Positions 1,999-31,400 of a stretch of DNA of 64,000 bases are shown here, one piece after another; within the stretch, counting starts at the first letter, position 1; each line of letters starts with the position of its first letter. The stretch covers positions 1-64,000 of the forward strand of contig NZ_JAAOZC010000006.1 of NCBI RefSeq assembly GCF_011761305.1, in the 5' to 3' direction. Made by a program: the position numbers and the translations under genes. The DNA is from Sphingomonas vulcanisoli. Its GTDB lineage: Bacteria; Pseudomonadota; Alphaproteobacteria; Sphingomonadales; Sphingomonadaceae. The notes below the pieces were generated by a model. The model saw only the letters and a program-made list of their open reading frames with translations, did not search any database and was not told where the DNA came from.

Positions 1999-3177
1999 TC
2001 AGATCCGTTCGAAGATGGCGGCGATACCCTGGCCGCCGCCGATGCACATGGTGGCCAACCCATAGCGGCCGCCTGTGCGGTGCAGTTCATGGACGAGCTT
2101 GGTGGTGATGATCGCGCCTGTCGCCCCCACCGGATGACCAAGCGAGATACCGCTGCCATTGGGATTGACCTTGGCTGGATCGAAATCGAGCTCGCGCGTC
2201 ACCGCGCAAGCCTGGGCTGCGAATGCTTCGTTGGATTCGATCACATCCAGGTCGGCAACAGTCAACCCGGCCTTCTTGAGCGCGCTGCGCGTCGCCGGCA
2301 CCGGGCCAATGCCCATATAGGCGGGATCAACGCCCGCATGGCCGTAAGCTACAAGCCGCGCCAGAGGCTTCAACCCGCGCGACTGCACCGCTGCTGCACT
2401 GGCAAGAACAACTGCGCTCGCGCCATCGTTGATGCCAGAGGCGTTGCCTGCTGTCACCGTACCGTCCCTTTGGAAGACAGGCTTTAACGTTCCAAGATCC
2501 TCGGCCGACACATTGGCGCGAACGAACTCGTCGGTATCGAAGGCTATCGGGTTGCGACGGACCATAACCTCAACCGGGACGATCTGATCGCGAAAATATC
2601 CTTCCGCGACGGCACGGGAAGCCCGAAGCTGGCTTTCCAAGGCCAGCGCATCCTGATCCTCGCGGGAAATGCCGTAACGCGCCGCGACATTCTCGGCGGT
2701 AACGCCCATGTGGATCATCTGGAAGGGATCGGTGAGGACTCCGGTTAGGCCATCCTGCAGAGCGCCTTCGCCCATCTTCAGGCCCCAACGGGCGCCCGGA
2801 ACAAAATAAGCCGCGCGACTCATGATTTCCGCGCCCGCGCCGATAGCGATCTGGACGTCGCCGAGCAGGATGGATTGTGCCGCGCTGATGATCGCTTGAA
2901 GGCCCGATCCACAAAGGCGGTTGACCGTGAGCGCGGGGCTCTCCTGAGGAAGGCCGGCACCAATAGAGGCGATTCGAGCCGCATATGCGTCGCGCGGCTC
3001 GGTATGAATGACGTTGCCGAGGACGAGCGCCTCCACGCTATCCGCGGTGATGCCTGCGCGCTGGATCGCAGCTTTGGCGATATGCGCGGCAAGTTCACCG
3101 GGCTTCTGGTCTCTAAGCGAACCACCAAAGGAGCCGATCGCGCTTCGCGCTGCGGACACAACAAAAACGTCGGTCAT
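1999..3177 (-). CDS. thiolase (acetyl-CoA C-acyltransferase)
   Basis: The 392-residue protein is a full-length thiolase. Cys89 in LCGSGLQ is the acyl-accepting nucleophile, NEAFA and GHPVGATGA supply the active-site Asn and His, and CIGGGQG near the C-terminus carries the second Cys. Thiolases cleave 3-ketoacyl-CoA to acyl-CoA plus acetyl-CoA (or run in reverse). As the last gene of the minus-strand catabolic block it probably performs the final thiolytic step on the side-chain CoA ester. A 221-bp gap separates it from the next gene upstream, so it may have its own promoter. Its stop codon lies one base from the IS6 end, yet the C-terminus (IAAIFERI) looks complete. Confidence 0.93.
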   Translation of the reverse strand: MTDVFVVSAARSAIGSFGGSLRDQKPGELAAHIAKAAIQRAGITADSVEALVLGNVIHTEPRDAYAARIASIGAGLPQESPALTVNRLCGSGLQAIISAAQSILLGDVQIAIGAGAEIMSRAAYFVPGARWGLKMGEGALQDGLTGVLTDPFQMIHMGVTAENVAARYGISREDQDALALESQLRASRAVAEGYFRDQIVPVEVMVRRNPIAFDTDEFVRANVSAEDLGTLKPVFQRDGTVTAGNASGINDGASAVVLASAAAVQSRGLKPLARLVAYGHAGVDPAYMGIGPVPATRSALKKAGLTVADLDVIESNEAFAAQACAVTRELDFDPAKVNPNGSGISLGHPVGATGAIITTKLVHELHRTGGRYGLATMCIGGGQGIAAIFERI

Positions 3178-3398
3178 TTGATCTCCATTCGAATATTGGC
3201 GCGCAAACAGTCAATTCATTCATCTGCGCCGCTTGATTTATCGCAACGTCCGTGACGCGCTGGAACAATTGCTCTTGATGTTTCGCAGTCACGGCCGAGG
3301 AGGTACTTTACAACCGGTTGAATGACTGTCGGATTGGCTCAATATCCATCGCCCAATTAGCGTAACTCAGAGCACTTTGTGTGACGCTCCGGTCACCA

Positions 3399-4241
3399 TC
3401 ATGAAGGCGCAAAGCCCTCGCCGATTGGGCTGATCAAGGACCGCTCAAGAACGGATTTTGCCCCACGGATTGCTTGACGGATGCGCTCATGGGCAGAAAC
3501 ATTACTTTTCATGGCGGGGTGCTGAGGGACTTCCACCTCGATAGGCGTGCCTTTCGGAACGCTGCGCAACATGGCGACAAGCGGAAGATCACCGCTGCCC
3601 GGCGGCAAACGGTTCGTCAGCGACTCAACACGCAGCTGATCGGGCGCCATATGGGCTGGACCGTCGCATATCTGGACAGTGCCCAGAAGGCTGCCGTCGA
3701 TCGCCGCTATCTGTTCAACGGTTACGCCGGTACGAGCGGCATGAAGGAGGTCGAGGGTAAGGACGGCGTTGCCCTCACCGGCTGTTTCGATCAGATGGAG
3801 CGCGTCCTTCAGTGACTTTATCTTTGCGGTCGACGTAAACTCCAGCGCCAGCAACAACCCATATTCGGCGCAAAGATCGCTGAAAGCCTTGAAAGCATCC
3901 CGCTGCGCTGCCGCATCCTCTATCTGAACATGCGTCGTTGCCTGACGCGCTCCAAGGCCGGCGGCTCTCGACAATCCGGGTCGATAATCTTCGAGGCAGA
4001 CGCCGGTTGTTAACGGGAAATATTCCGCGTTTAGCAGCGTCAAATTTCCTGCCGTCATCCGGCTCCTAAGCGCCCTAACCGATGCTTGATCGGAGACACG
4101 GGGAAAGTCCGCCGGAAGGACGGCCGGTACGTGTGTAAATGTGGATATTGCCTGACAGCCCTGTTTCGCTGCCTCATCCGCTAATTGGCAAGCATCAAGA
4201 TCGGTCGCCGTCATGTGGTGAAGTGACAGTATTTGTGTCAT
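3399..4241 (-). CDS. TIM-barrel sugar-phosphate isomerase/epimerase family protein (1 of 3)
   Basis: A 280-residue xylose-isomerase-like TIM barrel. The metal-ligand pattern is visible: Glu in LALEFTS, Asp and His in LTLDLLHAART, Asp in VQICDGPAH and Glu in IEVEVPQ. An in-frame extension to 4349 exists, but the ATG at 4241 (MTQILSLHHM) is preferred because it starts at the fold's first strand and the extension is basic, polar and overlaps the upstream gene. Members of this superfamily include isomerases, epimerases, dehydratases (3-dehydroshikimate) and lyases, so the reaction is open. A related protein with the same QICD signature is encoded at 15080. It lies 97 bp after the crotonase gene, probably in the same operon. 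Confidence 0.82.
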   Translation of the reverse strand: MTQILSLHHMTATDLDACQLADEAAKQGCQAISTFTHVPAVLPADFPRVSDQASVRALRSRMTAGNLTLLNAEYFPLTTGVCLEDYRPGLSRAAGLGARQATTHVQIEDAAAQRDAFKAFSDLCAEYGLLLALEFTSTAKIKSLKDALHLIETAGEGNAVLTLDLLHAARTGVTVEQIAAIDGSLLGTVQICDGPAHMAPDQLRVESLTNRLPPGSGDLPLVAMLRSVPKGTPIEVEVPQHPAMKSNVSAHERIRQAIRGAKSVLERSLISPIGEGFAPS

Positions 4242-4338
4242 GTTTGACCTGCGACGAAGCTTTCTACCCGTATGTCGCAGAATATATTTGCGGATTTGCT
4301 CTGAATGGATGGATGATTGCGATATATCGTTATCACTA

Positions 4339-5160
4339 TCACGCTCCAATGAAGGTAGGCGGCCTGCGGTCGATTAGTGCTTCAATTCCTTCCTTATGAT
4401 CGGCGCTGTAGTGGGCGAGTGCCTGCGTAGTTGCGGACATTTCAAGAAGCGTGTCGAAGCTCGCAGACTGGCCTGCACGCATTAGGGACTTTGCGATCCG
4501 AAGGGCGTGTGGCGGCATTGACGCAATCTTCTGCGCCAGTCGCTCGGCTTCCGCCGTCAATCTACCGAGTGGGACGACCCGACTGACCAAGCCCCATAAG
4601 GCTGCCGTTTCCGCATCGATCGAGTCTCCCGTGAAAAAGAGTTCTGCGGCACGGCTCATTCCGATAGCCCGAGGCAACAGCCAAGCACCACCATCGCCGG
4701 GAAGCAGGCCCAGCTTCAGAAAGGGCACGGAGAAGGTCGCCGTGGCGGCCGCGATGCGAATATCCGCGAGGCAAACGATATCGCAGCCAAGACCGACGGC
4801 CGGCCCGTTTACCGCCGCGATCAACGGCATATCGAGGGCGTAAAGCGCCCGGACTATTCCATGGACATTGTTTCTATAGGCTTCCCTTAAAGCCATGCCC
4901 GATCCTGCGAACATGCCCTCTTTCGAACGCATGGCATGGATATCGCCACCCGCGGAAAAGGCGCTGCCGTCGCCGGTCAGGATTGCGCAGCGGATCGCGG
5001 GATCGCCGTTAAGTTCATCGCACATTGCTTTCGCAGCGTGGCCATCGCCGGCTAGAGCCAAGGGATTACGCCGTTCCGGCCTGTTTAACCAAATGCGCGC
5101 AATGTTTTGCTCCACCTCCCATCGAAAGGGTGGAGGCGTGGCGGATGTCCCTGCACTCAT
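4339..5160 (-). CDS. enoyl-CoA hydratase/isomerase family protein (crotonase fold)
   Basis: The 273-residue protein has the crotonase oxyanion-hole segments FSAGGDI and GPAVGLGCDI and the LLPGDGGAWLLPR segment. In classical enoyl-CoA hydratase the two catalytic glutamates lie in GGGCE and PEI; here the equivalents appear to be Asp (GLGCD) and Phe (VPFLKLG), so simple hydration may not be its reaction; an isomerase, hydrolase or ring-cleaving role is possible. It starts within the stop of the upstream reductase gene (4-bp overlap), showing translational coupling with the Rieske system. It likely acts on the CoA ester made by the synthetase encoded at 8297. Confidence 0.85.
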   Translation of the reverse strand: MSAGTSATPPPFRWEVEQNIARIWLNRPERRNPLALAGDGHAAKAMCDELNGDPAIRCAILTGDGSAFSAGGDIHAMRSKEGMFAGSGMALREAYRNNVHGIVRALYALDMPLIAAVNGPAVGLGCDIVCLADIRIAAATATFSVPFLKLGLLPGDGGAWLLPRAIGMSRAAELFFTGDSIDAETAALWGLVSRVVPLGRLTAEAERLAQKIASMPPHALRIAKSLMRAGQSASFDTLLEMSATTQALAHYSADHKEGIEALIDRRPPTFIGA

Positions 5161-6125
5161 AGGTCTAGAACCAGCAGGGCGGACTCAGCGCGGGAGCAAC
5201 ACGGCAAAAACTGATCGTTTTTAGCCTTCTCCTCATCGGTCAAGTAAACGTCACGATGCTCCGGAATGCCGTCCAATACTCGGGTAAGGCAAGTGCCGCA
5301 CACACCGCTTTCGCAGGAAATCGGGATTTCGATGCCTTCTGCCGCCAGCGCTTCGGAGACGCTTTTTTCCGCGGGAATATGAATGACGCGATTGCTCGAA
5401 GCGAGCTTGACGTCGAAACTGCCATCGGCGGATTTATCGATCACGCCGCTAGAAAAATATTCCATATGAAGGCGGGAACTGTCCCACCCCGAGCTTCGGG
5501 CTCCATCCAATATCCAGTCCATGAAGCCTTTCGGGCCGCATATATAAAGATGGGTTCCCTCGGGAACCGAAGACAGAACCTTATCGCGATCGAATCGCTG
5601 TTCAGCGGGGCCGTCATCGTGATGTAGGCTGACCTGCGCCGCAAATGGCGCTGCGGCTATCCGCGCGGCAAAGGCCGTTCGTTGGAGATTACGCGTGCAA
5701 TAATGCATCTCGAAATGCGTACCGATCTGCGCAAGTCGCTCTGCCATACAAAGGATCGGCGTGATCCCGATGCCGCCCCCCAACAGCAGATAATGGGGCG
5801 CGTTTGGCATAAGCGGAAAGTGATTCCGCGGCATGCTGATCTCTAATGCGTCGCCTTCGCCAATGTCGTCAGCCAAGGCCCGGGAACCGCCCCGCGACTC
5901 TCCTTCGCGCTGGACGCACAATAGATAGCGATGACTTTCGGCAGGGTCATTACAAATGGAATATTGCCGAATCATGCCGCCCGGAAGGGCGACATCGACA
6001 TGAGATCCGGCGGAAAACGGAGGTAGTGCTTCTCCAGCTCGTGAAACGAGTTCAAAGCTGAAAATATCCTCCGCTTCAACTTGCTTACGCGCGACGATCA
6101 CTGGCAGACTCATGTGCTGGCTCAT
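5157..6125 (-). CDS. VanB/phthalate-dioxygenase-reductase type ferredoxin reductase
   Basis: A 322-residue class IA oxygenase reductase. The order is a flavin-binding barrel (about 1-105, with RQYSICNDP), an NAD-binding domain (about 110-225, GGGIGITPILCMA) and a C-terminal plant-type 2Fe-2S domain (CESGVCGTC plus a later Cys). It passes electrons from NAD(P)H directly to a Rieske oxygenase, so no separate ferredoxin is needed. It overlaps the Rieske gene upstream by 4 bp, making that its obvious partner. As the only reductase in the island, it may also serve the second Rieske enzyme (13782-14897), but this is inference. Confidence 0.93.
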   Translation of the reverse strand: MSQHMSLPVIVARKQVEAEDIFSFELVSRAGEALPPFSAGSHVDVALPGGMIRQYSICNDPAESHRYLLCVQREGESRGGSRALADDIGEGDALEISMPRNHFPLMPNAPHYLLLGGGIGITPILCMAERLAQIGTHFEMHYCTRNLQRTAFAARIAAAPFAAQVSLHHDDGPAEQRFDRDKVLSSVPEGTHLYICGPKGFMDWILDGARSSGWDSSRLHMEYFSSGVIDKSADGSFDVKLASSNRVIHIPAEKSVSEALAAEGIEIPISCESGVCGTCLTRVLDGIPEHRDVYLTDEEKAKNDQFLPCCSRAESALLVLDL

Positions 6126-7387
6126 TCAGTCGGGACTGGATCGGTAATATTCTCGGGCGGATTGAACGCATCTATCGTCGACCAGTCTATTCCCCGATAC
6201 CGCAGTGAAATTCCGCGGATATGGGCATAATCGATGCGATCGGCGGGATCCCGCGAGAGCGTGCCCTCTTCTTGTTCACGCAGCATTTCCAATAGGCGGC
6301 GGCGCGTCTGGGCGATTACGACATCGCTCGTTCCCAGATGCTCTTTCGATCGATCGACGATCGGACCCATGGATTCCGCAATGACGACATCTTCGGTCGG
6401 CACCGTTCCGGGCAGACCCGACCAATGCCCCTGTTCCATTCGCGCCCGATCTTGCCGCCACATGTTTTCGAAGCCGCCGAGACCTGCTGCGAAATTATCA
6501 TAGGTTCCTGGCAGCATGGGTGCGATCGTTTCACCCTCTTCAAGAGGACGATCCGAATGATAATAGAACGTCCACAGTATATGATTATAATCATCGATGG
6601 GAACGTAACAAAAGGTCTGGCTCACCGCCCCAGGCCGCATTGGGATAAAGCTGAAAAACGGCAGCACAATTTCACGAACACGGGTATATTCCGTACCATC
6701 ATTGAATCCCCGGATGGCACCTTCTTTCAGGCCGTATGGAACTCGAACGACTTTAAATACGGGAGGCATATCGAGTGTCAGTCTCAGTTCATCCATGGAG
6801 CTCACATTGGATGCCAAGATCCCACTCTTGTGCAGGATACCAAGATGTGCGGAATCCAGAACCGTCTCAAAGCCTTGTAGCCAATTTGACTTGCACTCGC
6901 CGCGGATCGCTTTGACCTGATTCGCCGGGAGCGAATTGAATTCCCAATCCGGGAATTTAGGCGTCTCACCGCCACCAAAATAGGCCCAGATAACGCCCGC
7001 CGCCTCACGCACGGGAAAATGGCGCACGGGAATATTCTTTATGAACTTTTCTCGGCGCTCGATCGGTTCGGATGGGGCATCCAGCAATTGACCTTCGACG
7101 CCGACCTTCCAACCGTGATAGAGGCAGGTGAGCGCGCAATCTCCGTTACGGGCCAACGCCATCGAAACGCCGCGATGCGGGCAGGCTTCATCGATAAGGC
7201 CAACCCGCCCATCGGTGGCGCGAAACGCGACGAAATTTTCTCCCAGAACACGGATACGTTGCGGCGCTCCGTCGGCAAGAAGCGTTTCGGAGCGCAGGAG
7301 GGGCAGCCAGTAGCTTCGCGCCAGCTTTCCCATCGGCGTCCCCGGTCCAACGCGACAAAGCAGCTCATTTTGTTCATGCGTGAGCAT
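6122..7387 (-). CDS. Rieske non-haem iron oxygenase, alpha subunit (phthalate/phenoxybenzoate dioxygenase type)
   Basis: The 421-residue protein carries the Rieske 2Fe-2S ligands Cys69, His71, Cys88 and His91 (CPHRG...CLYHGW) and mononuclear iron ligands in the DSAHLGILH segment. The opening MLTHEQNELLCRVGPGTPMG is typical of phthalate 4,5-dioxygenase-like enzymes. These add two oxygen atoms to, or O-demethylate, aromatic rings. There is no beta-subunit gene, which is normal for this class. The neighbouring reductase overlaps by 4 bp, and the gene itself overlaps the amidohydrolase gene upstream by 14 bp. The ring substrate cannot be read from sequence. Confidence 0.92.
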   Translation of the reverse strand: MLTHEQNELLCRVGPGTPMGKLARSYWLPLLRSETLLADGAPQRIRVLGENFVAFRATDGRVGLIDEACPHRGVSMALARNGDCALTCLYHGWKVGVEGQLLDAPSEPIERREKFIKNIPVRHFPVREAAGVIWAYFGGGETPKFPDWEFNSLPANQVKAIRGECKSNWLQGFETVLDSAHLGILHKSGILASNVSSMDELRLTLDMPPVFKVVRVPYGLKEGAIRGFNDGTEYTRVREIVLPFFSFIPMRPGAVSQTFCYVPIDDYNHILWTFYYHSDRPLEEGETIAPMLPGTYDNFAAGLGGFENMWRQDRARMEQGHWSGLPGTVPTEDVVIAESMGPIVDRSKEHLGTSDVVIAQTRRRLLEMLREQEEGTLSRDPADRIDYAHIRGISLRYRGIDWSTIDAFNPPENITDPVPTE

Positions 7388-8297
7388 CGGCCTCTCCTTT
7401 GATTTCGTTGGGATCGAACCCGGCCTCGCGAGGAAGACCGTAAAGCCGGGCGGGATTCTCTACAAAGATCGCATGGAGCGCAGCATCGCTTGATGTCCAT
7501 TGACCTATCAGTTCGATCAGCGCTTCTGTGCGCGGCATGAGCGACGGATCGGAAATGGCGACATGAGGCCAATCGCTGCCCCATAGAAGGGATTGGCGGT
7601 GATCTTCGATCAGAGTGGACGCGACCGGGATGGTATCGCGCCAAGGCTCCGCACACAGACGATAGGCGCCAGAAAGTTTTACATAACGATCGCGTTGATC
7701 AAGAATGGCGCGCAGCGCGGCGAACTGAGGGCCATGAATACCCATTGCCATGTCGCAGTCGCCGAAATGCGCGAGGACTACGGGGACCGGCAGAGCGTCA
7801 ATGATCGGCTTCAGTTCGGCGAGCATGTGTCCGGGCACGCCAAACTCGATGTGCCAGCCATAGGGGGCGATGCGTTCGGCGAGCGCCATCGCCGCTTCCG
7901 GTGCCACGCCGCCGCGTGTCAGCGTCAGCAAACGGACCCCGCGGACGCCTGCTTCATGCATTTCGGCCAGCTTGGACTCGCGGATGTCCGGCGCGATCGC
8001 GGCGACGCCTCGGAGCCGATCCGGATGAAGACGCAGGCCTTCGAGGAGCAAATCATTGTTTGTCCCATGCACGCTCACCTGCACAAGCACGCCATATTTG
8101 AGCCCGACCTCGTCGAGCATCCCGATATAGGCGCCGATATCGGCGATCGGTGGATCGTAGTTGCGCGGCGATACCCAGGGAGCCGCCCCGACGACATGGG
8201 CATGGCAATCCCAGGCCTTTGCCGGCAGACGGAGTGCAGGTGTCCGCACAGGCCAGGGCGAAAGGCACGGTATCGGAATGTCGGTGCCGATCTGCAT
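7374..8297 (-). CDS. amidohydrolase-superfamily protein (LigI / 2-pyrone-4,6-dicarboxylate lactonase-like)
   Basis: A 307-residue TIM-barrel hydrolase. Visible metal/catalytic residues are the HxH of WDCHAHVVG, a His in VLAHFGD and the Asp of LLWGSDWPH. This pattern belongs to the group containing LigI lactonase and related decarboxylases. In a catabolic operon it may open a lactone or hydrolyse a ring-cleavage product. Its start overlaps the stop of the acyl-CoA synthetase gene by one base (TGATG), and its end overlaps the Rieske gene, so it is part of the same transcript. Exact substrate unknown. Confidence 0.82.
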   Translation of the reverse strand: MQIGTDIPIPCLSPWPVRTPALRLPAKAWDCHAHVVGAAPWVSPRNYDPPIADIGAYIGMLDEVGLKYGVLVQVSVHGTNNDLLLEGLRLHPDRLRGVAAIAPDIRESKLAEMHEAGVRGVRLLTLTRGGVAPEAAMALAERIAPYGWHIEFGVPGHMLAELKPIIDALPVPVVLAHFGDCDMAMGIHGPQFAALRAILDQRDRYVKLSGAYRLCAEPWRDTIPVASTLIEDHRQSLLWGSDWPHVAISDPSLMPRTEALIELIGQWTSSDAALHAIFVENPARLYGLPREAGFDPNEIKGEADAHA

Positions 8298-9796
8298 CAG
8301 CGAAGATCCGCCACCGATGCATCAAGCGCGGTCAATTCGCCGCGCTGGATCTTCTGTGTCGCCGTTTTCGGGATGACGTCGATGAACCTGACGTAGCGGG
8401 GTAACATATAAGGGGGGAAATGATCCGCCAGGAAGCTGCGGATAGCCGCCGGCTCGATCGGCTCGCCCGCCACGACCACCGCCTTGACCTCCTCTCCCAT
8501 GACGGCGTCCGGGACGCCGACGATGGCGCAGTCTTCGACGCCGGGCATGGTTATGAGGCGCGTTTCCATCTCCACCGGTGAAATCATCTCGCCCCCCCGC
8601 CGGATCAGTTCTTTGATGCGGCCATGGAAATACAGATATCCATCGGCATCGAACGATCCGATATCGCCGGTATGAAACCAAAGATTGCGGGTCGCTTCCA
8701 CAAACTTGTCGGGTTTGTTCCAATATCCGGACATGACCGCAAAAGGCTCGCGTGGGCGGGCGACGATCTCGCCGCGAACGCCTGGGGGGACAGGACGGTC
8801 CTGCGGATCGACTACGCGCAGCTCGATATCCTCCCGGACCCGTCCAACGGAGCCGAACCGCGTATCCTTGAGCGAGTTGGAAGAGGTCCACCCGCCGATC
8901 TCGGTCATGCCGTAGCTCTCGTTGATCGGAAAACCGAAACGCTCCTCGATGGCGCTCCAAACTTCGGGGGCGGCGCCTCCGCCGATACAGAAACGCAGCC
9001 GGTGATCTTTCTGCACGCCGGGATGGCGGTTGACGAGCAGGGCAAGCACCGTCCCTACGAAGGTGCAGCCCGTTGCATCGAACCGGCGGGCATCGTCAAA
9101 GAAGGTCGATGCGTTGAATTTCGGCCGGATGATGATGCTCGCGCCCACAGTGATGGCGCCCATCACCGCAAACATTTGCGGATTGACGTGGAAGAGCGGC
9201 AGGAAAACCAGAATGCGATCTTCGGAATGGAGTCCGACAAGATTAGCGGTGGCCAGCCCGGTGGCCTCATAGGCGTGATAGCTATTCATCACCCCCTTCG
9301 GCAGCCCGGTCGTTCCCGACGTATAAAGGATCGTGGCCGTATCCCATGGCTCCGGGCTCACGGCTTCGATCTGTTCAAAGGGACTCAAGCTTTCGAAAAA
9401 ATCCTCATCGCTGCCGATCAGCACCAGCGGTAATTTGCGCTGATCTTCGGTAAGTTGATTGCCGAGCTTTTCATGCCATGCTCGATCCGCGACGATGATC
9501 TTACTCTCGGACTGATCGACGGTGTAGCGCAGTCCATCGGCGAGCAGCTGGTTGTTCAGCGCGACGAGAACGGCGCCCGTCATGCTGATACCGAACCAGG
9601 CGACGATATAGGCGGCGCTATTGCCCGCCAACAGCGCCACATGATCACCGCGCTGCACGCCTTTCGCTTGAAGGAGCGATCCAAATCGAGCTGCACGATC
9701 GGCGATTTCCGCATAAGTATGGGTGCCGTGATCCGTGATCAAAAACGGCCTATCGCCAAATTTCGCAAGGCGATTGAAGAGCGATTGATCACTCAC
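8297..9796 (-). CDS. AMP-forming acyl-CoA synthetase
   Basis: The 499-residue protein has the adenylate-forming signature ILYTSGTTGLPKG, the A5 motif ESYGMTEIGG, the TGD segment (FHTGDIGSF) and hinge GRIKELIRRGGE, with a C-terminal PKTATQKIQR lysine. It joins a carboxylic acid to CoA via an acyl-AMP. It is translationally coupled to the acyl-CoA dehydrogenase gene upstream (4-bp overlap), so the acid released by the meta-cleavage hydrolase or a side-chain acid is the likely substrate. The length is slightly short of typical (about 510-550) but all domains are present. Confidence 0.93.
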   Translation of the reverse strand: MSDQSLFNRLAKFGDRPFLITDHGTHTYAEIADRAARFGSLLQAKGVQRGDHVALLAGNSAAYIVAWFGISMTGAVLVALNNQLLADGLRYTVDQSESKIIVADRAWHEKLGNQLTEDQRKLPLVLIGSDEDFFESLSPFEQIEAVSPEPWDTATILYTSGTTGLPKGVMNSYHAYEATGLATANLVGLHSEDRILVFLPLFHVNPQMFAVMGAITVGASIIIRPKFNASTFFDDARRFDATGCTFVGTVLALLVNRHPGVQKDHRLRFCIGGGAAPEVWSAIEERFGFPINESYGMTEIGGWTSSNSLKDTRFGSVGRVREDIELRVVDPQDRPVPPGVRGEIVARPREPFAVMSGYWNKPDKFVEATRNLWFHTGDIGSFDADGYLYFHGRIKELIRRGGEMISPVEMETRLITMPGVEDCAIVGVPDAVMGEEVKAVVVAGEPIEPAAIRSFLADHFPPYMLPRYVRFIDVIPKTATQKIQRGELTALDASVADLR

Positions 9797-10935
9797 TTTG
9801 GCATTCTCCCGATAAGAAATTTGGCTATCGTATTTTTAAGAATTTCCGAGGATCCGCCGCCAATTTCGTAAGTCTTGGCGTCCCGAAAGTATCGGCCGAA
9901 CGGCGTGTTCACCGAAGTGCCCCAAGCCCCGCCGATCTGAATGGCCTTGCTTGCCACCTCCGTGGCCACACGGCTTGCGATGAGCTTGGCGGTGCTGGAA
10001 TGACGAGCGATATCTTCGTGATCGTCCAGAGCCCGCGCAGCGCGGTATACGAGCAATCTGGCGGCATCTATGTCCGCCAGCATCTCAGCGAAATACCATT
10101 GGATGCCCTGGAAGCTCGATATCGTCTGATCGAACGCCGTCCGGCCCGTAGCCCGTGCCAACGCACCATCGAAAGCAGCGCGGCCAATTCCGACACTGAT
10201 GGCGGCTGCGAAGGTGCGTGAATAATCGAGAACGGTAACCGCCTGACGAACGCCCTTGCCCTCGGTTCCGATCAAATGATCGAGCGGGAGCCGCACATCA
10301 TTTAGCCGCATGTTGACATGCGGGCCGTTGCGAAGCCCGATCGTTGCCGAGAATTCGCCGACATATTTCTCGCACCCAGGCAAGCCATAGGGCAGCGCAA
10401 ATGCCGAAACCCCGATGTCGGTCTCCGCAAGAATGATCAGGAACTCGGCCGCCGAGCCGGACGTGATGAAGCTCTTTTCGCCGTTTAGAATCCAGCTCTG
10501 TCCGTCGCGCACAGCTTTGGTGTCCAGCGATCGAATATCACTGCCATGGTTCGCTTCCGTCAGCGCATAAGACGCGATCAAGCCCTCGCGGTATTTGGGC
10601 CTATATTCGCTGATCAGGCTGTCCGAGCCAAAAAGGCTGAGCATCGTCAGCGACTGGAATATCGAAATGAGCGACACACCCGTCGCTGCACTGGCGTAGC
10701 CCACCTCCTCAAATAGCGCGGCGACCAGTTCGAACCTGCCCTCACCTCCGAAGTTCTTCGGTAGAAGGATTTCTATAAACCCAGCTTTGGCGAGGCCTCG
10801 AATGATGTCGACGGGATAAAAATCGTCTTTATCGATCGCGTCGGCATGCGGCAAAATCTCGCACGATACGTGATGTCGTATGCGGTTTACGAAGTCCTCA
10901 TCAACTAATGGACGCCATATATCAGGAGAAGACAT
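9793..10935 (-). CDS. acyl-CoA dehydrogenase
   Basis: A 380-residue FAD-dependent acyl-CoA dehydrogenase with the N-terminal helical domain, middle beta domain (ALTEANHGSDI, GEKSFITSG) and C-terminal helical domain ending TYEIGGGSSEILKN, which supplies the Glu usually acting as base in this family. It introduces an alpha,beta double bond into an acyl-CoA, passing electrons to ETF. It begins right after the stop of the hydrolase gene and overlaps the CoA synthetase gene, so all three act in series. Branched or cyclic acyl chains are possible substrates. Confidence 0.92.
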   Translation of the reverse strand: MSSPDIWRPLVDEDFVNRIRHHVSCEILPHADAIDKDDFYPVDIIRGLAKAGFIEILLPKNFGGEGRFELVAALFEEVGYASAATGVSLISIFQSLTMLSLFGSDSLISEYRPKYREGLIASYALTEANHGSDIRSLDTKAVRDGQSWILNGEKSFITSGSAAEFLIILAETDIGVSAFALPYGLPGCEKYVGEFSATIGLRNGPHVNMRLNDVRLPLDHLIGTEGKGVRQAVTVLDYSRTFAAAISVGIGRAAFDGALARATGRTAFDQTISSFQGIQWYFAEMLADIDAARLLVYRAARALDDHEDIARHSSTAKLIASRVATEVASKAIQIGGAWGTSVNTPFGRYFRDAKTYEIGGGSSEILKNTIAKFLIGRMPK

Positions 10936-14897: not shown

Positions 14898-14985
14898 ATT
14901 CTCTCCTGTTCCACGAATGGCGATGATTTCGGACGTAGACCAAGGTCTCGCCACCGCCTTAACTGGGCGGAACAGTCACCATTCG

Positions 14986-22192: not shown

Positions 22193-22226
22193 GGCAGCGG
22201 CAGTGGGCTGTTGCTGCCTTTAGTTT
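22193..22226 (+). terminator. probable rho-independent terminator after the flavin reductase gene
   Basis: GGCAGCGGCAG (22193-22203) pairs imperfectly with CTGTTGCTGCC (22208-22218) around TGGG, and TTTAGTTT follows. It is placed 30 bp after the reductase stop. Confidence 0.5.
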
Positions 22227-22384
22227 GAGATGGCGTAGCTCGCTCGATCTTGTTCAGGAACGAAGACTGGTTCTGACAATATCTGAGACCTTACGGCCTC
22301 GATTTTGTCCTTTTCGCATCAAACTAGCAAATATCAACGCCTGCCGGAGGCTAGACTGGAGCCTACGATTAATCGGGGTAAATC

Positions 22385-23770
22385 ATGAGGGACATATCAG
22401 ACAAGGACTATGACGTCATAGTCGTTGGCGGTGGCGGCGCCGGCCTCGCTGTGGCCAATGAAGCCAGTAGCCGCGGCAGGTCTGTTCTCTTGTTGGAAGC
22501 GGCGGACCGGATCGGAGGATCGACCGCATTATCACATGGCGTTTTCTATGCTGCCGGATCGCATGTTCAGGCGGCGGCAGGCATCGACGATAATGGCGAC
22601 GCCATGTTCCGATACGCCATGGCGCTCAATCAATGCAGAATGGAATCGGCGGTTGTACACCGTTATTGCAAGTCTTGCGGAAGTGCTCTTGATTGGCTTA
22701 GCCAATTGGGCGTCGAATTCCCGCGATTGGCGTGCGTGGACGTATCGGGGGTCGCGCGATCCCACTTCGCCGAGGGGCGAGGCGTTGCTATCGTAGATGC
22801 GCTGCATGCGGCCTTATCAGGTAGAGAAGTCGATATTGCCGTCCGGTCTCGGGTCGACGGATTATGCGTTGAGGACGGCCAGGTTACAGGCGTGCGCGTG
22901 GGTGGCGAAACCGTCTCTGCTCATTCCGTTGTGATCACCACCGGCGGCTTTGGTGGGAACCCAGATTTGGTAGATACTCTGATTCCATCCACGCGCCGTA
23001 AGCGAGACCGATTATGGTATATCGGCGCCAAGCAATGCGTCGGTGACGGTTTGCTGATGGCTCAGCAAGCCGGCGCGGCAATCGCGGGCTTTGATCGGGC
23101 GCTTTTTCAACCCACGCCCGGCTTCCAGCAAATCCTCGAGCAACCGCCGGCATGGCTGATTTTGGTCAACAAGGACGGGCGCCGGTTTTGTGACGAATCG
23201 GTCGCCTATTGTGTTTTGGACAGCCTCATCGGATCACAGCCCGATCAAGAGGCCTACGGCATCTTCGACGCCGATACGTTTGCAAATCCCCCGCGCGATT
23301 TGAGATACGCCGCAGCAATAGCGGCGGGCCACTCTTCGACAGCCTGGACCAACGATGTTTTGCGATCGGAGGTCAATGGAGAACGGTTGAAGTCAGCTTC
23401 CACAATTGAAGAGTTGGCCGAAAATCTCGGAATAAACAAGGAAGCTCTCAGATTTACCATTGAACAACAGAACATCTGGTGTGAGAAAAAGCAAGACAGG
23501 TCTTTTGGAAAACCCGGCGAGTATTTGCGAGCGATAACACAGCTGCCTTTCTTTGGCGCCATCTTCCGCAACGAGACCCTGTGCATCACTTTGACAGGCC
23601 TTAAAATAGACGAGAGCTGCCGTGTGCTGCAAAACGATGGCAGGGCAATCCCCGGCCTTTTTGCAGCTGGAGAAGTGACCGGCAGCGTGATGGGCGAGCG
23701 CTATATCGGCTCGGGAAATTCGATCTCGCAGGGTATCACCATGGGCCGCATCGCCGGCCAAATCGTTTGA
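22385..23770 (+). CDS. FAD-dependent dehydrogenase, KstD / fumarate-reductase flavoprotein family
   Basis: The 461-residue protein begins with the dinucleotide motif VVVGGGGAGLAVANEA and ends with LFAAGEVTGSVMGERYIGSGNSISQG, the FAD-binding closing segment of the FRD_2 family. This family includes 3-ketosteroid dehydrogenases (delta-1 and delta-4) and urocanate/fumarate reductases. It would introduce or remove a ring double bond next to a ketone. Its presence beside HsaA/HsaB-like genes hints at a hydroaromatic or terpenoid/steroid-like substrate, but cofactor-site resemblance alone cannot define it. It is about 30-100 residues shorter than most KstD proteins. Confidence 0.82.
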   Translation: MRDISDKDYDVIVVGGGGAGLAVANEASSRGRSVLLLEAADRIGGSTALSHGVFYAAGSHVQAAAGIDDNGDAMFRYAMALNQCRMESAVVHRYCKSCGSALDWLSQLGVEFPRLACVDVSGVARSHFAEGRGVAIVDALHAALSGREVDIAVRSRVDGLCVEDGQVTGVRVGGETVSAHSVVITTGGFGGNPDLVDTLIPSTRRKRDRLWYIGAKQCVGDGLLMAQQAGAAIAGFDRALFQPTPGFQQILEQPPAWLILVNKDGRRFCDESVAYCVLDSLIGSQPDQEAYGIFDADTFANPPRDLRYAAAIAAGHSSTAWTNDVLRSEVNGERLKSASTIEELAENLGINKEALRFTIEQQNIWCEKKQDRSFGKPGEYLRAITQLPFFGAIFRNETLCITLTGLKIDESCRVLQNDGRAIPGLFAAGEVTGSVMGERYIGSGNSISQGITMGRIAGQIV

Positions 23771-24147: not shown

Positions 24148-26364
24148 ATGATCTCGCAAAAGGGTATACTGTTGTGCTGCACGGCATCGATGGCGACGAT
24201 GGCTACGTCTGCGCTTGCGCAAGCTAGTCCACCGTCCGATCCGCCATCGGCCCAAGCAGGTGCAGCCGTCTCCGCCACATCAAAGCCCGGCGTAAATGAT
24301 ACCTCCGCTCTTGAGGATATTATCGTAACTGCACAGCGGCGTTCCGAGAACGTCCAAAAAGTCCCGATCTCTATCACAACGCTGAGCGCCAAGACGCTCT
24401 CTGTCGCTGGAGTGGCGTCAACCGATGCTTTGGTCACGGTCACACCCGGCCTTACCTTCACGCAACAGATCAGGGGATCGGCTCCCTACATCCGCGGCGT
24501 CGGGTCTCCGACCGCTCAGCCAGGCCTAGAGAGCCCTGTCGCCGTATACGTCGACGGCGTATATTATCCCTCGCCCACCGGATTGATTTTTCAGTTCAAC
24601 AATATCGAGCGCGTAGAGGTGATTAAGGGGCCGCAAGGCACGTTGTTCGGCCGCAACGCCACCGGCGGTCTTATCAGCGTCGTTACACGGACACCTAAGG
24701 CAGACCCTTCAATCGAGGGATCGATCTCATACGGCAACTACAAGACGGTCGATGGTTCGCTCTACGCCACAGGAGGTAACGACAAGATAAAGGCCGATAT
24801 TTCGCTTAAATATACTAAGCAGAACGATGGCTATGGGATAAACCTGAATTCAGGAGCGGATGTCAATCGGCAGAATACGTGGGGCGTTCGTTCGAAGTTG
24901 CTATGGACCCCAAGCAGCCTGGATACCTTCACGCTCGGTTTTGATTATGTCAAAGACCGTTCCGATTTGGGTGTCTCACGAAACGTGGTCAACGGATCGA
25001 AGCTCCTCGGGGGGGTAACCTTTAAAGGCACGATTTATGACACGCAGGCAGGAAGCAACCCGGACGTCAATCACGACAGCTATGGCGCAAATTTGCGGTA
25101 TGAACGTGATCTTGGCGACGCGCGGCTGTCATCTTTGACCGCTTTTAGGTCTCAAAACCTTTATACCTTCTTTGATCAGGACAATACCCCGGCAAGGATT
25201 GTCGATGTCACCTTGACGGAAAAATACCGCAGCCTGCAGCAGGAAATTGTACTCGTCGGAAAAACAGGACGATTGGATTACACGGCGGGCGTCTTTTACC
25301 TGGACATCAGCGCCAAATACGATCCATCGTTCATCGGTAGTTCGGTAATACCTGCTCAGAACTACGAAAGACAGGCCGATCAGGAAACACAGTCTTATGC
25401 AGGCTTCGCGCAAGGCACCTATGCGCTGACCAATTCGACAAAATTCACGGCGGGCTTACGGTATACCGTGGACAAGCGCAATTTCAGTGGCCTTCAGACG
25501 GCAACCGCGGGAAATTCCGTACCTGTGGGTACGATATTGATAAATGCCTATGGGTCACGGACGTACCCAAAGCTGACTTGGAGATTTGCTTTGGATCAGC
25601 AAATCACTTCAAGCATATTGGCTTACGCAAGCTACAATCGAGGCTTTAAGAGCGGATCGTTCAACAGCGCCAACATTAATCAGGCACCCGTCAACCCCGA
25701 AGTGATCGATGCTTACGAAGCGGGCGTCAAGTCCGAGCTCTTCGATCGTCTTGTTCGCATCAATGTGGCGGGATTTCATTACAATTACTCAGGCATTCAG
25801 TTGACTAGGCTGGACGGCCCAACCGCAATTCTTTTCAATGCCGCGAAGGGCCGCGTTAACGGTGCGGAAGCGGAGATCCAAGTCGCCCCCCGGCTCGGCA
25901 CGGGAGAGCTGCATCTGGGCAGCGGACTGGCGTATACCGACGCCAAATATGTCAGCTTTCCCAATGGTCCGATTTCCGTTCCTTCGGCGGCCGGCGGAAA
26001 TGCGTCGGTGCCGGGCGATCTCGCCGGCAATCGTATGATCCGGACTCCAAAGTTCACCATTTCCGCCACAGCTGATTATGCCGTTCCCGTAGGTGCCAAC
26101 GAGTTGGAGCTCAGCGCCACTTATTATCACAACAGCGGCTTTTACTGGGATCCGGATAACAGGTTGAAGCAGACCCCTTACGGCCTGCTAAGTGCGCAAG
26201 CCTCTCTGCACTTTGGACGGCTGCACAATTATACGGTGCGCGCGTTCGGCAAGAATCTGACCAATCAGCACTACTTTTCTTACGTGACCGCCGGCTCGCT
26301 CGGCGATGTTGCTGCCGCCGCTCCCCCGCGGACCTACGGCGTGGCTTTTGATTTCAAGTTTTAG
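24148..26364 (+). CDS. TonB-dependent outer-membrane receptor, probably for substrate uptake
   Basis: A 738-residue receptor with a signal peptide (about residues 1-27, ending ALAQA), a TonB-box-like EDIIVTAQRR segment, a plug domain (about 60-170, PQGTLFGRNATGG) and a C-terminal beta-barrel closing with FDFKF. The terminal aromatic residue is typical. Sphingomonad catabolic clusters often encode such receptors for import of hydrophobic or bulky substrates. Its location inside the island, between the flavoprotein and P450 genes and away from iron genes, favours that role over siderophore uptake. Confidence 0.93.
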   Translation: MISQKGILLCCTASMATMATSALAQASPPSDPPSAQAGAAVSATSKPGVNDTSALEDIIVTAQRRSENVQKVPISITTLSAKTLSVAGVASTDALVTVTPGLTFTQQIRGSAPYIRGVGSPTAQPGLESPVAVYVDGVYYPSPTGLIFQFNNIERVEVIKGPQGTLFGRNATGGLISVVTRTPKADPSIEGSISYGNYKTVDGSLYATGGNDKIKADISLKYTKQNDGYGINLNSGADVNRQNTWGVRSKLLWTPSSLDTFTLGFDYVKDRSDLGVSRNVVNGSKLLGGVTFKGTIYDTQAGSNPDVNHDSYGANLRYERDLGDARLSSLTAFRSQNLYTFFDQDNTPARIVDVTLTEKYRSLQQEIVLVGKTGRLDYTAGVFYLDISAKYDPSFIGSSVIPAQNYERQADQETQSYAGFAQGTYALTNSTKFTAGLRYTVDKRNFSGLQTATAGNSVPVGTILINAYGSRTYPKLTWRFALDQQITSSILAYASYNRGFKSGSFNSANINQAPVNPEVIDAYEAGVKSELFDRLVRINVAGFHYNYSGIQLTRLDGPTAILFNAAKGRVNGAEAEIQVAPRLGTGELHLGSGLAYTDAKYVSFPNGPISVPSAAGGNASVPGDLAGNRMIRTPKFTISATADYAVPVGANELELSATYYHNSGFYWDPDNRLKQTPYGLLSAQASLHFGRLHNYTVRAFGKNLTNQHYFSYVTAGSLGDVAAAAPPRTYGVAFDFKF

Positions 26365-27750: not shown

Positions 27751-28503
27751 ATGAGTAGATTGCGCGGCAGAGTCGCGATCGTTACCGGATCTGCGGCGGG
27801 CCTCGGGAAAGCGATGGCCGTGCGGTTCGCGGCTGAAGGCGCCTCTCTGGTATTGGCCGATCGCGACGATGCAGGTTCCGTCGTAGAAACGATCGAAGCC
27901 AGTGGCGGCGTTGCAATAGCTACGCGCACCGACGTTTCCCGTCCTGAAGACGTCGATTCTATGATCGAAACCGCCATGCAGCGGTTCGGCAAGATCGACA
28001 TCTTGGTAAATAATGCCGCGATAGCAAGCACTCTTGTCCCGCGGCCTTTTGAGGAAATTGACCTTTCAGAGTGGAACCGCGTTCTTAACGTCAACATCAT
28101 GGGGACCGTGCTGCCGTGCCGAGCAGTGTCACCCATCATGCGCGGTCAGGGTTACGGCCGTATCCTAAACTTCGGTTCCAACACCGCAGTGCGTGGCGCA
28201 CCCAATCTTCTTCAATATGTTGCGAGCAAAGGTGCGGTCCAGGCCCTTTCGATGTCGCTGGCGCAGGAATTGGGCGGCGACGGCATAACGGTAAATGTTA
28301 TTGCGCCCGGTTATATTGAAACCGATAACAATTTGGCCAACTCGGCCATGGTCGACAATATCCGCGAATTGGCGGCGCGCCGCCGTGCAATATCGCGGGC
28401 GGCGGTTCCGGAAGATGTCGTAGAAACTGCGCTCTTTTTGATATCCGAAGGTGCGGGTTTTGTATCGAGCCAAGTGATTGTTGTTAATGGTGGACCAGCT
28501 TGA
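27751..28503 (+). CDS. short-chain dehydrogenase/reductase
   Basis: A classical 250-residue SDR: TGSAAGLGKAMA cofactor motif, NNAAIAS, active-site Ser in NFGSNTAV and YxxxK as YVASK. AGAGGA precedes the ATG. It likely oxidises an alcohol made by the P450 or by ring reduction, or acts on a cis-diol. Substrate unknown. It is followed after 121 bp by the hydratase-dehydrogenase-aldolase trio on the same strand. Confidence 0.9.
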   Translation: MSRLRGRVAIVTGSAAGLGKAMAVRFAAEGASLVLADRDDAGSVVETIEASGGVAIATRTDVSRPEDVDSMIETAMQRFGKIDILVNNAAIASTLVPRPFEEIDLSEWNRVLNVNIMGTVLPCRAVSPIMRGQGYGRILNFGSNTAVRGAPNLLQYVASKGAVQALSMSLAQELGGDGITVNVIAPGYIETDNNLANSAMVDNIRELAARRRAISRAAVPEDVVETALFLISEGAGFVSSQVIVVNGGPA

Positions 28504-28624
28504 GCTCCGGAGTATCCGCCGGTCATTCTGACATGGCTGCGCGATACCGTCTCGGATGGCTGCGGCGTTCCATTGGCGAAGTCGCGACATGGTTATCCTC
28601 AAACCGAGCATTGGACGATCATCG

Positions 28625-29419
28625 ATGACCCGGACGACGCACGAGCAGCTCGCGCGTCGCCTGCGCGACGCTTACTCGCGTGGGCCGGTGTCCCCGTTGC
28701 GCGACGGGCTCGATCCTCTTGATGCCGACGGCGCCTATGCGGTGCAGATGATCAACAATCGCTATTGGGAAGCGCAAGGTCGTCGGATGGTCGGCCGCAA
28801 GGCGGGGCTGACGGCAAAGGCGGTCCAGGCCCAACTCGGTGTCGATCAGCCCGATTTCGGCGTGCTGTTTGCCGACATGGAGATTGCCGACGGTGGCCGG
28901 CTTGATCCCCACCGCGTGCTTCAACCCAAGGCGGAGGCTGAGATCGCCTTCGTGCTCGGTGCCGACCTGCCCGATCCCGATACTTCGCCGGAACAAGCCG
29001 CCGCCGCCGTCAAGACCGTGCATGCCGCTATCGAAATCGTCGACAGCCGGATCGCCGATTGGAAGATAACCTTCGCCGACACAGTCGCGGACAACGGATC
29101 ATCGGCTTTTTTTGTTCTCGCCGAAACGGGGAGGCCGCTTGACGGAATTGATCTCGAAGGCGCCGCGATGACGATGCGGTTCAACAACGAAACGGTTTCG
29201 ACGGGCGTCGGCGCGGCGGCGCTCGGAAACCCGCTCAATGCAGCGGCCTGGCTCGCGCGGACACTGGCCGGACGCGGCGAACCGCTGAAGGCTGGTGATG
29301 TGCTGCTTGCCGGTGCGCTGGGGCCGATGGTCGCGCTGAAGGCCGGGGACAATGTTCGCGCCTCGATCGACGGGATCGGTGAAGTTGGCTTTGCTTACGC
29401 GGAGGTATCAGAGGCATGA
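28625..29419 (+). CDS. 2-hydroxypenta-2,4-dienoate hydratase (2-keto-4-pentenoate hydratase)
   Basis: A 264-residue FAH-fold hydratase. The metal-binding ExE is seen in [12 protein letters not shown], with a later DSRIADWK segment. It adds water to 2-hydroxypentadienoate to give 4-hydroxy-2-oxovalerate. The ATG at 28625 gives the family length; the longer frame from 28556 adds residues of no known fold. It overlaps the acetaldehyde dehydrogenase gene by 4 bp. Decarboxylases of the 4-oxalocrotonate branch are close relatives, but the neighbours favour the hydratase role. Confidence 0.9.
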
Positions 29420-30369
29420 GTAAAACGCGCGTCGCCATTATCGGATCTGGCAACATCGGCACAGACTTGATGATCAAGATCATGCGGCTCTCCAATATTC
29501 TAGAGATGGGCGCGTTCGTCGGGATCGATCCCGATAGTGACGGACTCAAGCGCGCCGCGAGGATGGGAGTGGCGACCACGGCCGAAGGTGTGGAAGGGCT
29601 GATCAAGTTACGGGAATTCGCCGACATCTCAATTGTCTTCGACGCCACCTCTGCCGGAGCCCACAAGCGCCACGATGCGCTGCTGCGGCAGCATGGAAAG
29701 CGCGTGATCGATCTTACCCCTGCCGCGATTGGTCCATACACTGTGCCGCCGGTTAACGGCGATGCGAACCTAGATGCAGCAAACGTCAATATGGTGACAT
29801 GCGGCGGCCAGGCGACAATCCCCATCGTGGCAGCCGTCGCCCGCGTGACGAAGGTGCATTATGGCGAGATCGTTGCTTCGATCGCCTCAAAAAGCGCCGG
29901 TCCCGGGACGCGCGCGAATATCGACGAGTTCACCGAGACAACCAGCCGTGCGATCGTTGAAGTGGGCGGCGCTTCTCGCGGCAAAGCGATCATCGTCCTC
30001 AATCCGGCCGAGCCGCCGCTGATCATGCGTGATACCGTATATTGCTTGGCCAACGACGCGGACCGCGAGGCTATCCGACGTAGTATCGAAGACATGGTGG
30101 CCGAGGTGCAGACCTACGTTCCGGGCTATCGTCTGAAGCAGGCGGTGCAGTTCGAGGCGATTGGCGACAACAATCCGTTGCACATTCCCGAAATGGCCGA
30201 CTTGGGCGAAACCCGATTCACGGGGCTGAAAGTGACGGTCCTCCTGGAGGTGGAGGGTGCCGCCCATTATTTGCCTGCTTATGCCGGCAACCTCGACATA
30301 ATGACTTCTGCGGCCCTTCGGACCGCAGAGAAGATGGCGGTCCGGATGCTCAAAAAGGAAGCGGCATGA
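29416..30369 (+). CDS. acetaldehyde dehydrogenase (acylating)
   Basis: The 317-residue protein has an N-terminal NAD motif ([12 protein letters not shown]) and the catalytic Cys in [10 protein letters not shown]. It converts acetaldehyde (or propanal) and CoA to acyl-CoA with NAD+ and works in a tunnelled complex with the aldolase whose gene overlaps it by 4 bp. Length and order match the conserved hydratase-dehydrogenase-aldolase module of meta pathways (BphJ/HsaG/XylQ type). Confidence 0.96.
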
Positions 30370-31400
30370 CCTTCGATCCGACGAGCACCAAGCTCTACAT
30401 TCAAGACGTAACGCTCCGCGATGGTATGCACGCGATCCGGCACCAGTACGGCCTGGACCATGTCCAGCAAATCGCGCGCGCACTCGATCGGGCGAAGGTC
30501 GATGCAATAGAGGTCGCTCATGGCGATGGCTTGCAGGGATCGTCTTTCAACTACGGCTTTGGTGCCCACCGCGATGTGGATTGGATCGCGGCAGTGGCCG
30601 AGGTTCTCGAACATTCGGTACTCACCACGCTTCTGCTGCCCGGCATTGGAACAGTGCATGATCTCAAGCATGCGTATGAGTTAGGGGTGCGATCGGTAAG
30701 AATTGCGACCCACTGCACCGAAGCGGACGTCTCGAAGCAGCATATCGAAGCGGCGCGCGGTTTGGGCATGGATGTGTCGGGCTTCCTGATGATGAGCCAC
30801 ATGAACACGCCGGAGGGGCTCGCCCAGCAGGCGAAGCTGATGGAGAGCTATGGGGCCCATTGCGTCTATGTCACCGACAGCGGCGGCGCGATGAGCATGG
30901 AGGACTATGCGGCGCGACTTCGTGCCTATGATCGGGTGCTGAAGCCCGAAACGCAACGCGGCGTGCATGCCCATCATAATCTGTCCCTCGGCGTCGCCAA
31001 CTCGATCGTCGCGGTGCAAAATGGTGCGGTTCGGGTTGATGCGAGCTTGGCCGGCATGGGGGCTGGCGCCGGGAATGCACCTCTTGAAGTCTTTATCGCT
31101 GCGGCGGACCGCTACGGGTGGAACCATGGCTGCGATCTTTATGCCTTGATGGACGCCGCTGAAGACCTGGTCCGCCCGCTGCAAGATCGTCCGGTGCGCG
31201 TTGATCGCGAGACACTAACCCTCGGCTACGCCGGGGTGTATTCGAGTTTTTTACGGCATGCCGAAAAGGCGGCCAAAGATTACGGTATCGACACAAGATC
31301 GATCCTTGCCGAGGTCGGACGCCGAAAGATGGTTGGCGGGCAAGAGGATATGATCATCGACGTCGCACTCGATCTGCAAGCGACCCACAGGCGGCGATAA
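30366..31400 (+). CDS. 4-hydroxy-2-oxovalerate aldolase
   Basis: A 344-residue class II aldolase of the DRE-TIM family. [10 protein letters not shown] near the N-terminus carries the catalytic Arg and a metal-binding Asp, and HAHHNLSLG supplies two metal-binding His. It splits 4-hydroxy-2-oxovalerate to pyruvate and acetaldehyde, which is channelled to the partner dehydrogenase. It is the last gene of the plus-strand block; no clear terminator follows. Confidence 0.96.

Follow-up and report, generated by a model that had tools for sequence, protein, structure and literature searches.

An acquired, apparently complete catabolic island of unusual make-up in Sphingomonas vulcanisoli, with a suggested cumate-type meta-cleavage route

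A group of 27 catabolic genes near one end of a Sphingomonas vulcanisoli contig raises the question of which compound it degrades and by which route. The window, that is, the whole stretch of 64,000 nucleotides analysed, spans bases 1-64000 of contig C6 (NZ_JAAOZC010000006.1), and the island genes w01 to w27 (Table 1) lie between positions 1999 and 31400. None of their reading frames contains an internal stop (0/27). A sequence-only reading had named two Rieske oxygenases, a cytochrome P450, an HsaA/HsaB-like pair, an extradiol dioxygenase, a C-C hydrolase, a hydratase/dehydrogenase/aldolase trio, CoA-ester enzymes, a TonB-dependent receptor and a LysR regulator, and Pfam and NCBIfam scans, by which the families of the island proteins were assigned, recover all of them; both Rieske oxygenases (w05 and w12) are of the alpha-only kind. 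The scans add what that reading had missed: an ACMSD-type decarboxylase, an amidohydrolase resembling 2-pyrone-4,6-dicarboxylate (PDC) hydrolase, a gene resembling 3-hydroxyisobutyrate dehydrogenase (HIBADH), two short-chain dehydrogenases/reductases (SDRs) and a second alpha/beta hydrolase. The combination had been said to match no single textbook pathway. Nor are we aware of a single textbook route in which all of these parts come together, and no near-identical or characterised cluster was found in the genomes and plasmids searched; however, the class can be recognised as cumate / 2,3-dihydroxybenzoate meta-cleavage, because an extradiol dioxygenase, an ACMSD-type decarboxylase, a hydrolase and the trio fit that type. 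The reading that we prefer, whose chances of being right or wrong we judge about equal, is an acquired island in which a cumate-type lower route consumes a catechol made by the HsaAB-like pair from a phenol, which in turn may derive from an alicyclic ketone. Comparison shows the gene content, the linkage of extradiol and decarboxylase genes, the lack of a beta subunit and the edge of the island, whereas we infer every single reaction in this scheme.

The lower route is the firmest part, and we regard its assignment to cumate / 2,3-dihydroxybenzoate-type meta-cleavage as probable. The product of w15 scores 155.4 bits against ACMSD structures and 62.8 bits against the best other amidohydrolase. 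Residues H140, H197, E248, H229 and Y238 of the extradiol dioxygenase w10, which we take to be its metal and second-sphere residues, fall in conserved columns of an alignment of 11 sequences, and hydrolase w09, hydratase w25, aldolase w27 and acylating dehydrogenase w26 complete the set. The genes around w10 relatives were compared at 84 loci, namely the best 80 of 192 relatives from one contig scan of an 84,980-species collection and four plasmid loci; neighbours were counted within 5 kb, a distance available on both sides in 60 of the 84 and shorter on one or both sides in the other 24. A w15-like gene accompanies the w10 relative at 45 of these loci. In Pseudomonas sp. PTH10, OpaC cleaves 2,3-dihydroxybenzoate, with a product seen at 343 nm, and OpaD decarboxylates the product, OpaC being 51% identical to a 2,3-dihydroxy-p-cumate dioxygenase and OpaD 30% identical to an ACMSD (PMC6362003). 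The cmt route follows the same order of reactions and yields isobutyrate, pyruvate and acetyl-CoA as end products (PMC5224996). The linkage of w15-like genes to w10 relatives and the characterised opa pair together suggest the same series of steps here, namely ring cleavage of a carboxylated catechol followed by decarboxylation and hydrolysis. We take it that the catechol of the island carries a carboxyl group. With this group beside one hydroxyl, the catechol would be opened by w10 and decarboxylated by w15; w09 would split the decarboxylated product into 2-hydroxypenta-2,4-dienoate and a carboxylic acid, and w25, w27 and w26 would convert the former into pyruvate and acetyl-CoA.

CmtD, which decarboxylates in the p-cumate route, belongs to the class II aldolases, whereas the decarboxylase of the island is of ACMSD type. 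CmtD has about 244 residues in the papers on the cmt clusters of Burkholderia xenovorans LB400 and Pseudomonas putida F1 (PMC5224996, PMC4097962), and the aldolase class is stated for its relative DhbB in another (PMC6362003). The cmt cluster shares with the island a carboxylated catechol, an extradiol dioxygenase, a decarboxylation, a hydrolase and the trio, but the island has no CmtA-type beta subunit. Its likeness to the opa cluster includes a cumate-dioxygenase-related extradiol enzyme, an ACMSD-family decarboxylase, a hydrolase and the trio; opa employs an alpha-beta dioxygenase of four components together with a dihydrodiol dehydrogenase (PMC6362003), whereas the island lacks the beta kind and contains further enzymes: HsaAB, a P450, the flavoprotein w21, the TIM barrels and a set for beta-oxidation. 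Because there is no beta subunit of an alpha-beta Rieske dioxygenase, the island is placed with the cumate / 2,3-dihydroxybenzoate class downstream and is not filed as a cmt or opa cluster.

This difference bears on how the catechol arises. A Rieske beta subunit is found at 47 of the 84 w10 loci, an HsaA-like gene at 10, both at one and neither at 28; the HsaA score at the sole locus with both (L081; loci and genomes are cited by our own L and G numbers) is weak (83 bits). Eight of the 10 HsaA-like loci also carry a w15-like decarboxylase. In the window, no Rieske beta subunit was detected with a hidden Markov model built from the sequences of five relatives at E values up to 10. The presence of HsaAB without a beta subunit points to a salicylate-type phenol as input, which w19/w20 would hydroxylate to the catechol with no alpha-beta Rieske dioxygenase involved; by analogy with the HsaA-like loci, we give this step an even chance. 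A Burkholderiales module (L022, L079, L080, L090, L092, L097, L099, L108, and L091 without the decarboxylase) unites ACMSD-like, HsaA-like, extradiol and HsaB-like genes, the kinds of w15, w19, w10 and w20, with extradiol enzymes about 49-53% identical to w10. It differs from the island in that w19 lies outside its HsaA clade and no relatives of the TIM barrels, w21 or w06 occur within 5 kb. To our knowledge, this four-gene module has not been described, and the comparison brings to light a unit that is easy to test. An MFS gene adjoins it in L022, L079 and L091.

The input might instead be aromatic from the outset: a benzoate or phenol with an alkyl or aryl substituent, originating from a plant phenolic, a lignin fragment or a xenobiotic. 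In that case it would be demethylated or hydroxylated by one Rieske oxygenase and converted into the catechol by HsaAB, leaving only a side chain or a second ring to be processed by w21, the SDRs and the TIM barrels. The LigXa / phthalate 4,5-dioxygenase type of w05 fits such an input, as do a 47% identical w05 relative near an extradiol and an ACMSD-like gene in Novosphingobium EMRT-2 and the many w10 relatives that accompany benzoate-type dioxygenases. However, this explanation assigns no clear role to w21, the three TIM barrels or the two SDRs, and the window has no beta subunit; we consider it rather unlikely.

According to the reading that starts from an alicyclic ketone, these leftover enzymes would make the phenol. 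The P450 or an alpha-only Rieske oxygenase would hydroxylate an alicyclic compound and an SDR would oxidise it to the ketone; w21 would introduce a double bond next to the ketone, and the TIM barrels would eliminate water or isomerise. That the upper part aromatises an alicyclic compound into a phenol is a tentative proposal. The sequence-only reading had called w21 KstD-like, a label that is loose, as the protein reaches 176.9 bits against the KstD model NF009478, whose cut-off is 789, and lacks an insertion found in KstD-like sequences. It does share with them the C-terminal motif V-M-G-x-x-Y-x-G-x-G and a Tyr after the D/N-E-S stretch, the KstD-like sequences compared scoring themselves below the KstD cut-off; the Tyr and Gly of the motif presumably bind the ketone. 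Assignment of w21 as KstD proper is rejected on the score and the missing insertion, although the motif is kept. A search with NF009478 at E values of 1e-60 or lower gave no match in this genome and matches in 16 of 59 genomes, none above the cut-off. In the stretches seen around four aligned w21 relatives (42-46% identical), the neighbours are SDRs or acyl-CoA ligases, and one has a choline-dehydrogenase-type gene.

TIM barrel w13 aligns with QuiC1 (5hmq) at the Glu, Asp, Gln and Glu positions that we take to be metal ligands of QuiC1: E123, D153 and E221 are conserved in eight sequences, and position 179 is Gln or His. This metal-site pattern of 3-dehydroshikimate-dehydratase-like TIM barrels is also found in isomerases. 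The comparison of w02 and w17 with the QuiC1 site was by eye only. Among seven plasmids with w13 relatives, three have a w21-like flavoprotein nearby and three a w18-like SDR, the w18 relatives being 46-47% identical on two plasmids and 44% on a third. On each of the Novosphingobium plasmids L133, L150 and L168, an AMP ligase occurs together with a gene weakly similar to Rieske proteins (27-28% identity with w05) and with a TIM barrel that shares about 47% identity with w13; an EthD gene is next in line in the two that are annotated.

Several observations weigh against the reading as a whole. A w15-like gene is not within 5 kb at 39 of the 84 w10 loci, w10 is poorly placed in the extradiol tree, with no supported grouping, and its closest relatives by identity (L046 and L047, 59%) accompany Rieske beta subunits. 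In the HsaA tree, the extradiol-linked HsaA proteins form a clade (96/99 support) that excludes w19, which sits on a long branch, and one HsaA relative, IppA1A2, hydroxylates para and not ortho (PMC12442392). The best model for w21 is that of flavocytochrome c (214.8 of 285.45 bits). No operator shared among the intergenic stretches was found for the LysR gene w14. At the thresholds used, none of the 84 w10 loci has a relative of w21, of a TIM barrel or of w06 within 5 kb. The upper part thus shows no linkage to the lower part in these loci, and the case for it draws on the make-up of the island and the plasmid pairings.

The last of these absences would be expected if the island were a composite of at least two unrelated routes joined by insertion sequence (IS) elements, one for meta-cleavage and the other for a hydroaromatic compound or a side chain. 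IS remains on both flanks, the two divergent gene blocks, and the occurrence of w13 and w18 relatives on inspected plasmid stretches with TIM barrels, where no w10 relatives were seen, are consistent with such an origin. However, the scan of the 27 genes revealed no IS remnant between the blocks; the minus-strand block is compact and mixes TIM-barrel genes with those for Rieske, extradiol and hydrolase enzymes, and parts of the lower route are spread over both blocks. A composite appears distinctly unlikely.

The acid that w09 would release may be used by other enzymes of the island. The products of w07, w08, w03 and w01 are, by family, a predicted set for activating and beta-oxidising an acid, and together perhaps with w11 they would consume it. 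An isopropyl-type ring substituent would leave as isobutyrate, or as 3-hydroxyisobutyrate if hydroxylated beforehand, and such a release would give w11 a task. With 184.8 bits, this gene comes third among the six HIBADH-family matches of the genome. A canonical HIBADH (404.2 bits) and a methylmalonate-semialdehyde dehydrogenase (MMSDH, 641.7 bits) lie 3 kb apart on contig C1, and w11 is an extra HIBADH-family gene, which we count in favour of the preferred reading. As to the substrate, our best guess is an alicyclic compound that yields a ketone, for instance a p-menthane terpenoid, whose p-menthane-like ring would bear an isopropyl-type substituent ending as isobutyrate or 3-hydroxyisobutyrate; we infer both this substrate and the aromatising upper part. 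The fullest version, a self-contained island in which P450 or Rieske enzymes, an SDR, a short KstD-type dehydrogenase and dehydratase-like TIM barrels aromatise a terpenoid-type ring, HsaAB hydroxylates the resulting salicylate and a cumate-type meta-cleavage with an ACMSD-family decarboxylase follows, is unlikely to hold in all its parts. Its union of steroid-style and cumate-style logic was not seen among the loci examined. If true, it would place on one mobile unit a route, open to testing, that leads from an alicyclic natural product by way of an aromatic intermediate into central metabolism. An extradiol enzyme with an ACMSD-type decarboxylase, and HsaAB replacing the Rieske beta subunit, would also serve as two markers for sorting unassigned catabolic clusters.

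A 9,10-seco-steroid (HsaABCD/KstD) route would explain why members of the HsaA, HsaB, HsaD and KstD superfamilies occur together in the island. The scores are all below the curated cut-offs, with 248.7 of 450 bits for HsaA, 144.2 of 230 for HsaB, 98.4 of 450 for HsaC and 106.3 of 400 for HsaD, in addition to that for KstD, and an ACMSD-type decarboxylase has no task in that route. A Caballeronia comparison cluster also remains below the cut-offs (379.9 bits for HsaA and 587 for the KstD model NF005882), so these scores come with no full positive control. A seco-steroid route is very improbable. Steroid, carbazole and lignin-biphenyl clusters, with which the sequence-only reading had proposed a comparison, are all rejected, and the cumate type matches downstream, without the beta subunit. 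As to carbazole, CarAa structures are the best match of w12 (122.6 bits), but neither a ferredoxin of its own nor a LigB-type extradiol enzyme was found; among the 27 island proteins, only w05 and w12 have a Rieske domain, only w04 has Fer2 and none has a LigB domain. As to the lignin biphenyl route, w05 matches LigXa_C with 97.5 bits (cut-off 27), but the 27 proteins include no LigB-type LigZ and there is no LigY, w15 scoring 45.8 bits against LigY versus 155.4 against ACMSD.

A near-identical, characterised cluster in another sphingomonad had been named as the finding that would overturn the original claim, and it was looked for in plasmid records, in family and class genome samples and in the collection scan, with none found. 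The closest w10 relative among the best 80 of 192 in the 84,980-species collection is 59% identical. No near-identical or characterised cluster was found in 397 family genomes searched with w10 or w12, in 385 class genomes searched with w12 or, at the DNA level, among the matches listed from 72,556 plasmid records; the genome sets are samples, searched with w12 at E limits of 1e-40 (family) and 1e-60 (class), and the plasmid search and the collection scan may leave out the genome of the window or a very near one. Positions 8000-32500 matched 35 plasmid records, of which the 20 listed all match on the trio or IS, and positions 1999-14000 matched two, both on the thiolase stretch. A literature search of open-licence papers did not find the cluster of the island. 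The sphingomonad G114 shares several parts: a 55% identical w12 relative stands with a P450 and SDRs, adjacent w09- and w11-like genes lie some 5-7 kb from it, and 56-57% identical w10 relatives occur elsewhere in the genome, one with a w15-like gene. In G114, however, the parts are at separate places, CoA transferases are present (by eye), and eight 20-kb stretches searched gave no TIM-barrel, HsaAB or w21 matches. We regard the island as genuine, acquired and, to all appearances, a complete catabolic unit; it falls into the cumate / 2,3-dihydroxybenzoate class but is unusual in make-up, and the searches of these collections and samples gave no close relative.

The surroundings of the island also argue for acquisition. 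The left edge is the assembly end inside IS debris, and an IS3 orfB lies on the right, as the sequence-only reading had noted; its right border was set too early, as the foreign segment continues to a tRNA-Ser(GCT) gene. In all six congeners, matches to a query of window positions 32550-36700 begin at query base 2337/2338, that is, window position 34886/34887, the 3' end of the tRNA. The tRNA-Ser(GCT) gene and the same start of matches are present in four of the five congener stretches fetched, the fifth (L167) being a contig end. Short scattered matches elsewhere in this query, in some of the same congeners, are read as repeats or other GGDEF genes. The genes called beyond the tRNA differ among congeners (L163-L166), and G254 has two open reading frames (ORFs) with integrase domains there. 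The tRNA-Ser(GCT) gene is a variable site in the genus, and congener homology ends at its 3' end. The mean GC content at third codon positions is 0.64 across the 27 genes of the island, against 0.80 across 26 genes to the right of 34600, with genes called by a codon-score script that was trained on island genes and may overlook those of a different composition. This low value and the sharp tRNA edge count for an island acquired at a tRNA-Ser hotspot, and the segment is read from its sequence as acquired DNA reaching 34886, including the IS3 element and the GGDEF-EAL gene.

Table 1 Features of the island and its borders (positions in the window)
Feature	Position	Strand	Basis or remark
IS debris, left side	422..1842		IS3 orfA 422-751 (+); IS3 orfB fragment 1089-1436 (+); IS240-type DDE fragment 1474-1842 (-)
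w01 thiolase, BktB type	1999..3177	-	659.9 bits to PRK09051, cut-off 565
w02 TIM barrel A (AP_endonuc_2)	3399..4349	-	family scan; true start probably inside ORF, near 4241
w03 enoyl-CoA hydratase family	4339..5160	-	family scans
w04 flavin/2Fe-2S oxygenase reductase	5157..6125	-	family scans; 61% to gene in L058
w05 Rieske oxygenase, LigXa_C / phthalate 4,5-dioxygenase type	6122..7387	-	alpha-only; family scan
w06 amidohydrolase, PDC-hydrolase-like	7374..8297	-	family scans
w07 acyl-CoA ligase	8297..9796	-	family scans
w08 acyl-CoA dehydrogenase	9793..10935	-	family scans
w09 C-C (meta-cleavage product) hydrolase	10936..11814	-	family scans
w10 type I extradiol dioxygenase	11839..12774	-	family scans; start from codon-score gene caller
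w11 HIBADH-like	12771..13739	-	184.8 bits, below cut-off 291.6
w12 Rieske oxygenase, CarAa-like	13782..14954	-	alpha only; family scan
w13 TIM barrel B (AP_endonuc_2)	15080..15850	-	family scan
w14 LysR regulator	15852..16754	-	family scans
w15 ACMSD-type decarboxylase	16751..17764	-	155.4 bits to ACMSD structures
w16 alpha/beta hydrolase, second in island	17842..18570	+	family scan
w17 TIM barrel C (AP_endonuc_2)	18575..19414	-	family scans
w18 SDR 1	19415..20161	-	family scan
w19 HsaA-like monooxygenase	20408..21637	+	248.7 of 450 bits
w20 HsaB-like flavin reductase	21683..22162	+	144.2 of 230 bits
w21 FAD dehydrogenase, fumarate reductase / KstD superfamily	22385..23770	+	family scans
w22 TonB-dependent receptor	24148..26364	+	family scan
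w23 cytochrome P450	26380..27657	+	family scan
w24 SDR 2	27751..28503	+	family scans
w25 2-hydroxypenta-2,4-dienoate hydratase	28556..29419	+	family scans; start perhaps 28625
w26 acetaldehyde dehydrogenase (acylating)	29416..30369	+	family scans
w27 4-hydroxy-2-oxovalerate aldolase	30366..31400	+	family scans
IS3 orfB transposase	31579..32469	-	Pfam/NCBIfam scans
GGDEF-EAL gene, within foreign segment	32637..34658	+	family scan; outside stretch common to congeners
tRNA-Ser(GCT)	34887..34976	-	3' end = right edge of foreign segment

The genes from w15 to w01 form a minus-strand block and those from w19 to w27 one on the plus strand; between the two lie w16 (plus) and w17-w18 (minus). Positions 15000-24200 contain five promoter-like sites against 4.0 expected and 16 terminator-like sites against 9.0, neither of which is used as evidence.

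The whole genome has 16 Rieske-domain matches, only two of them within the island; contig C9 (L033-L037) has eight and C15 (L032) two. These Rieske-rich contigs (L032-L037) also contain a 44% identical relative of w10, a match with an in-frame TGA. Further to the right in the window, a C-5 cytosine methylase gene (59989-61050, minus strand) and an ORF without a Pfam match (59189-59992, minus strand) are flanked by 64-bp direct repeats that are 92% alike, and the GC content dips there; positions 59022-61291 are perhaps a small restriction-modification insertion.

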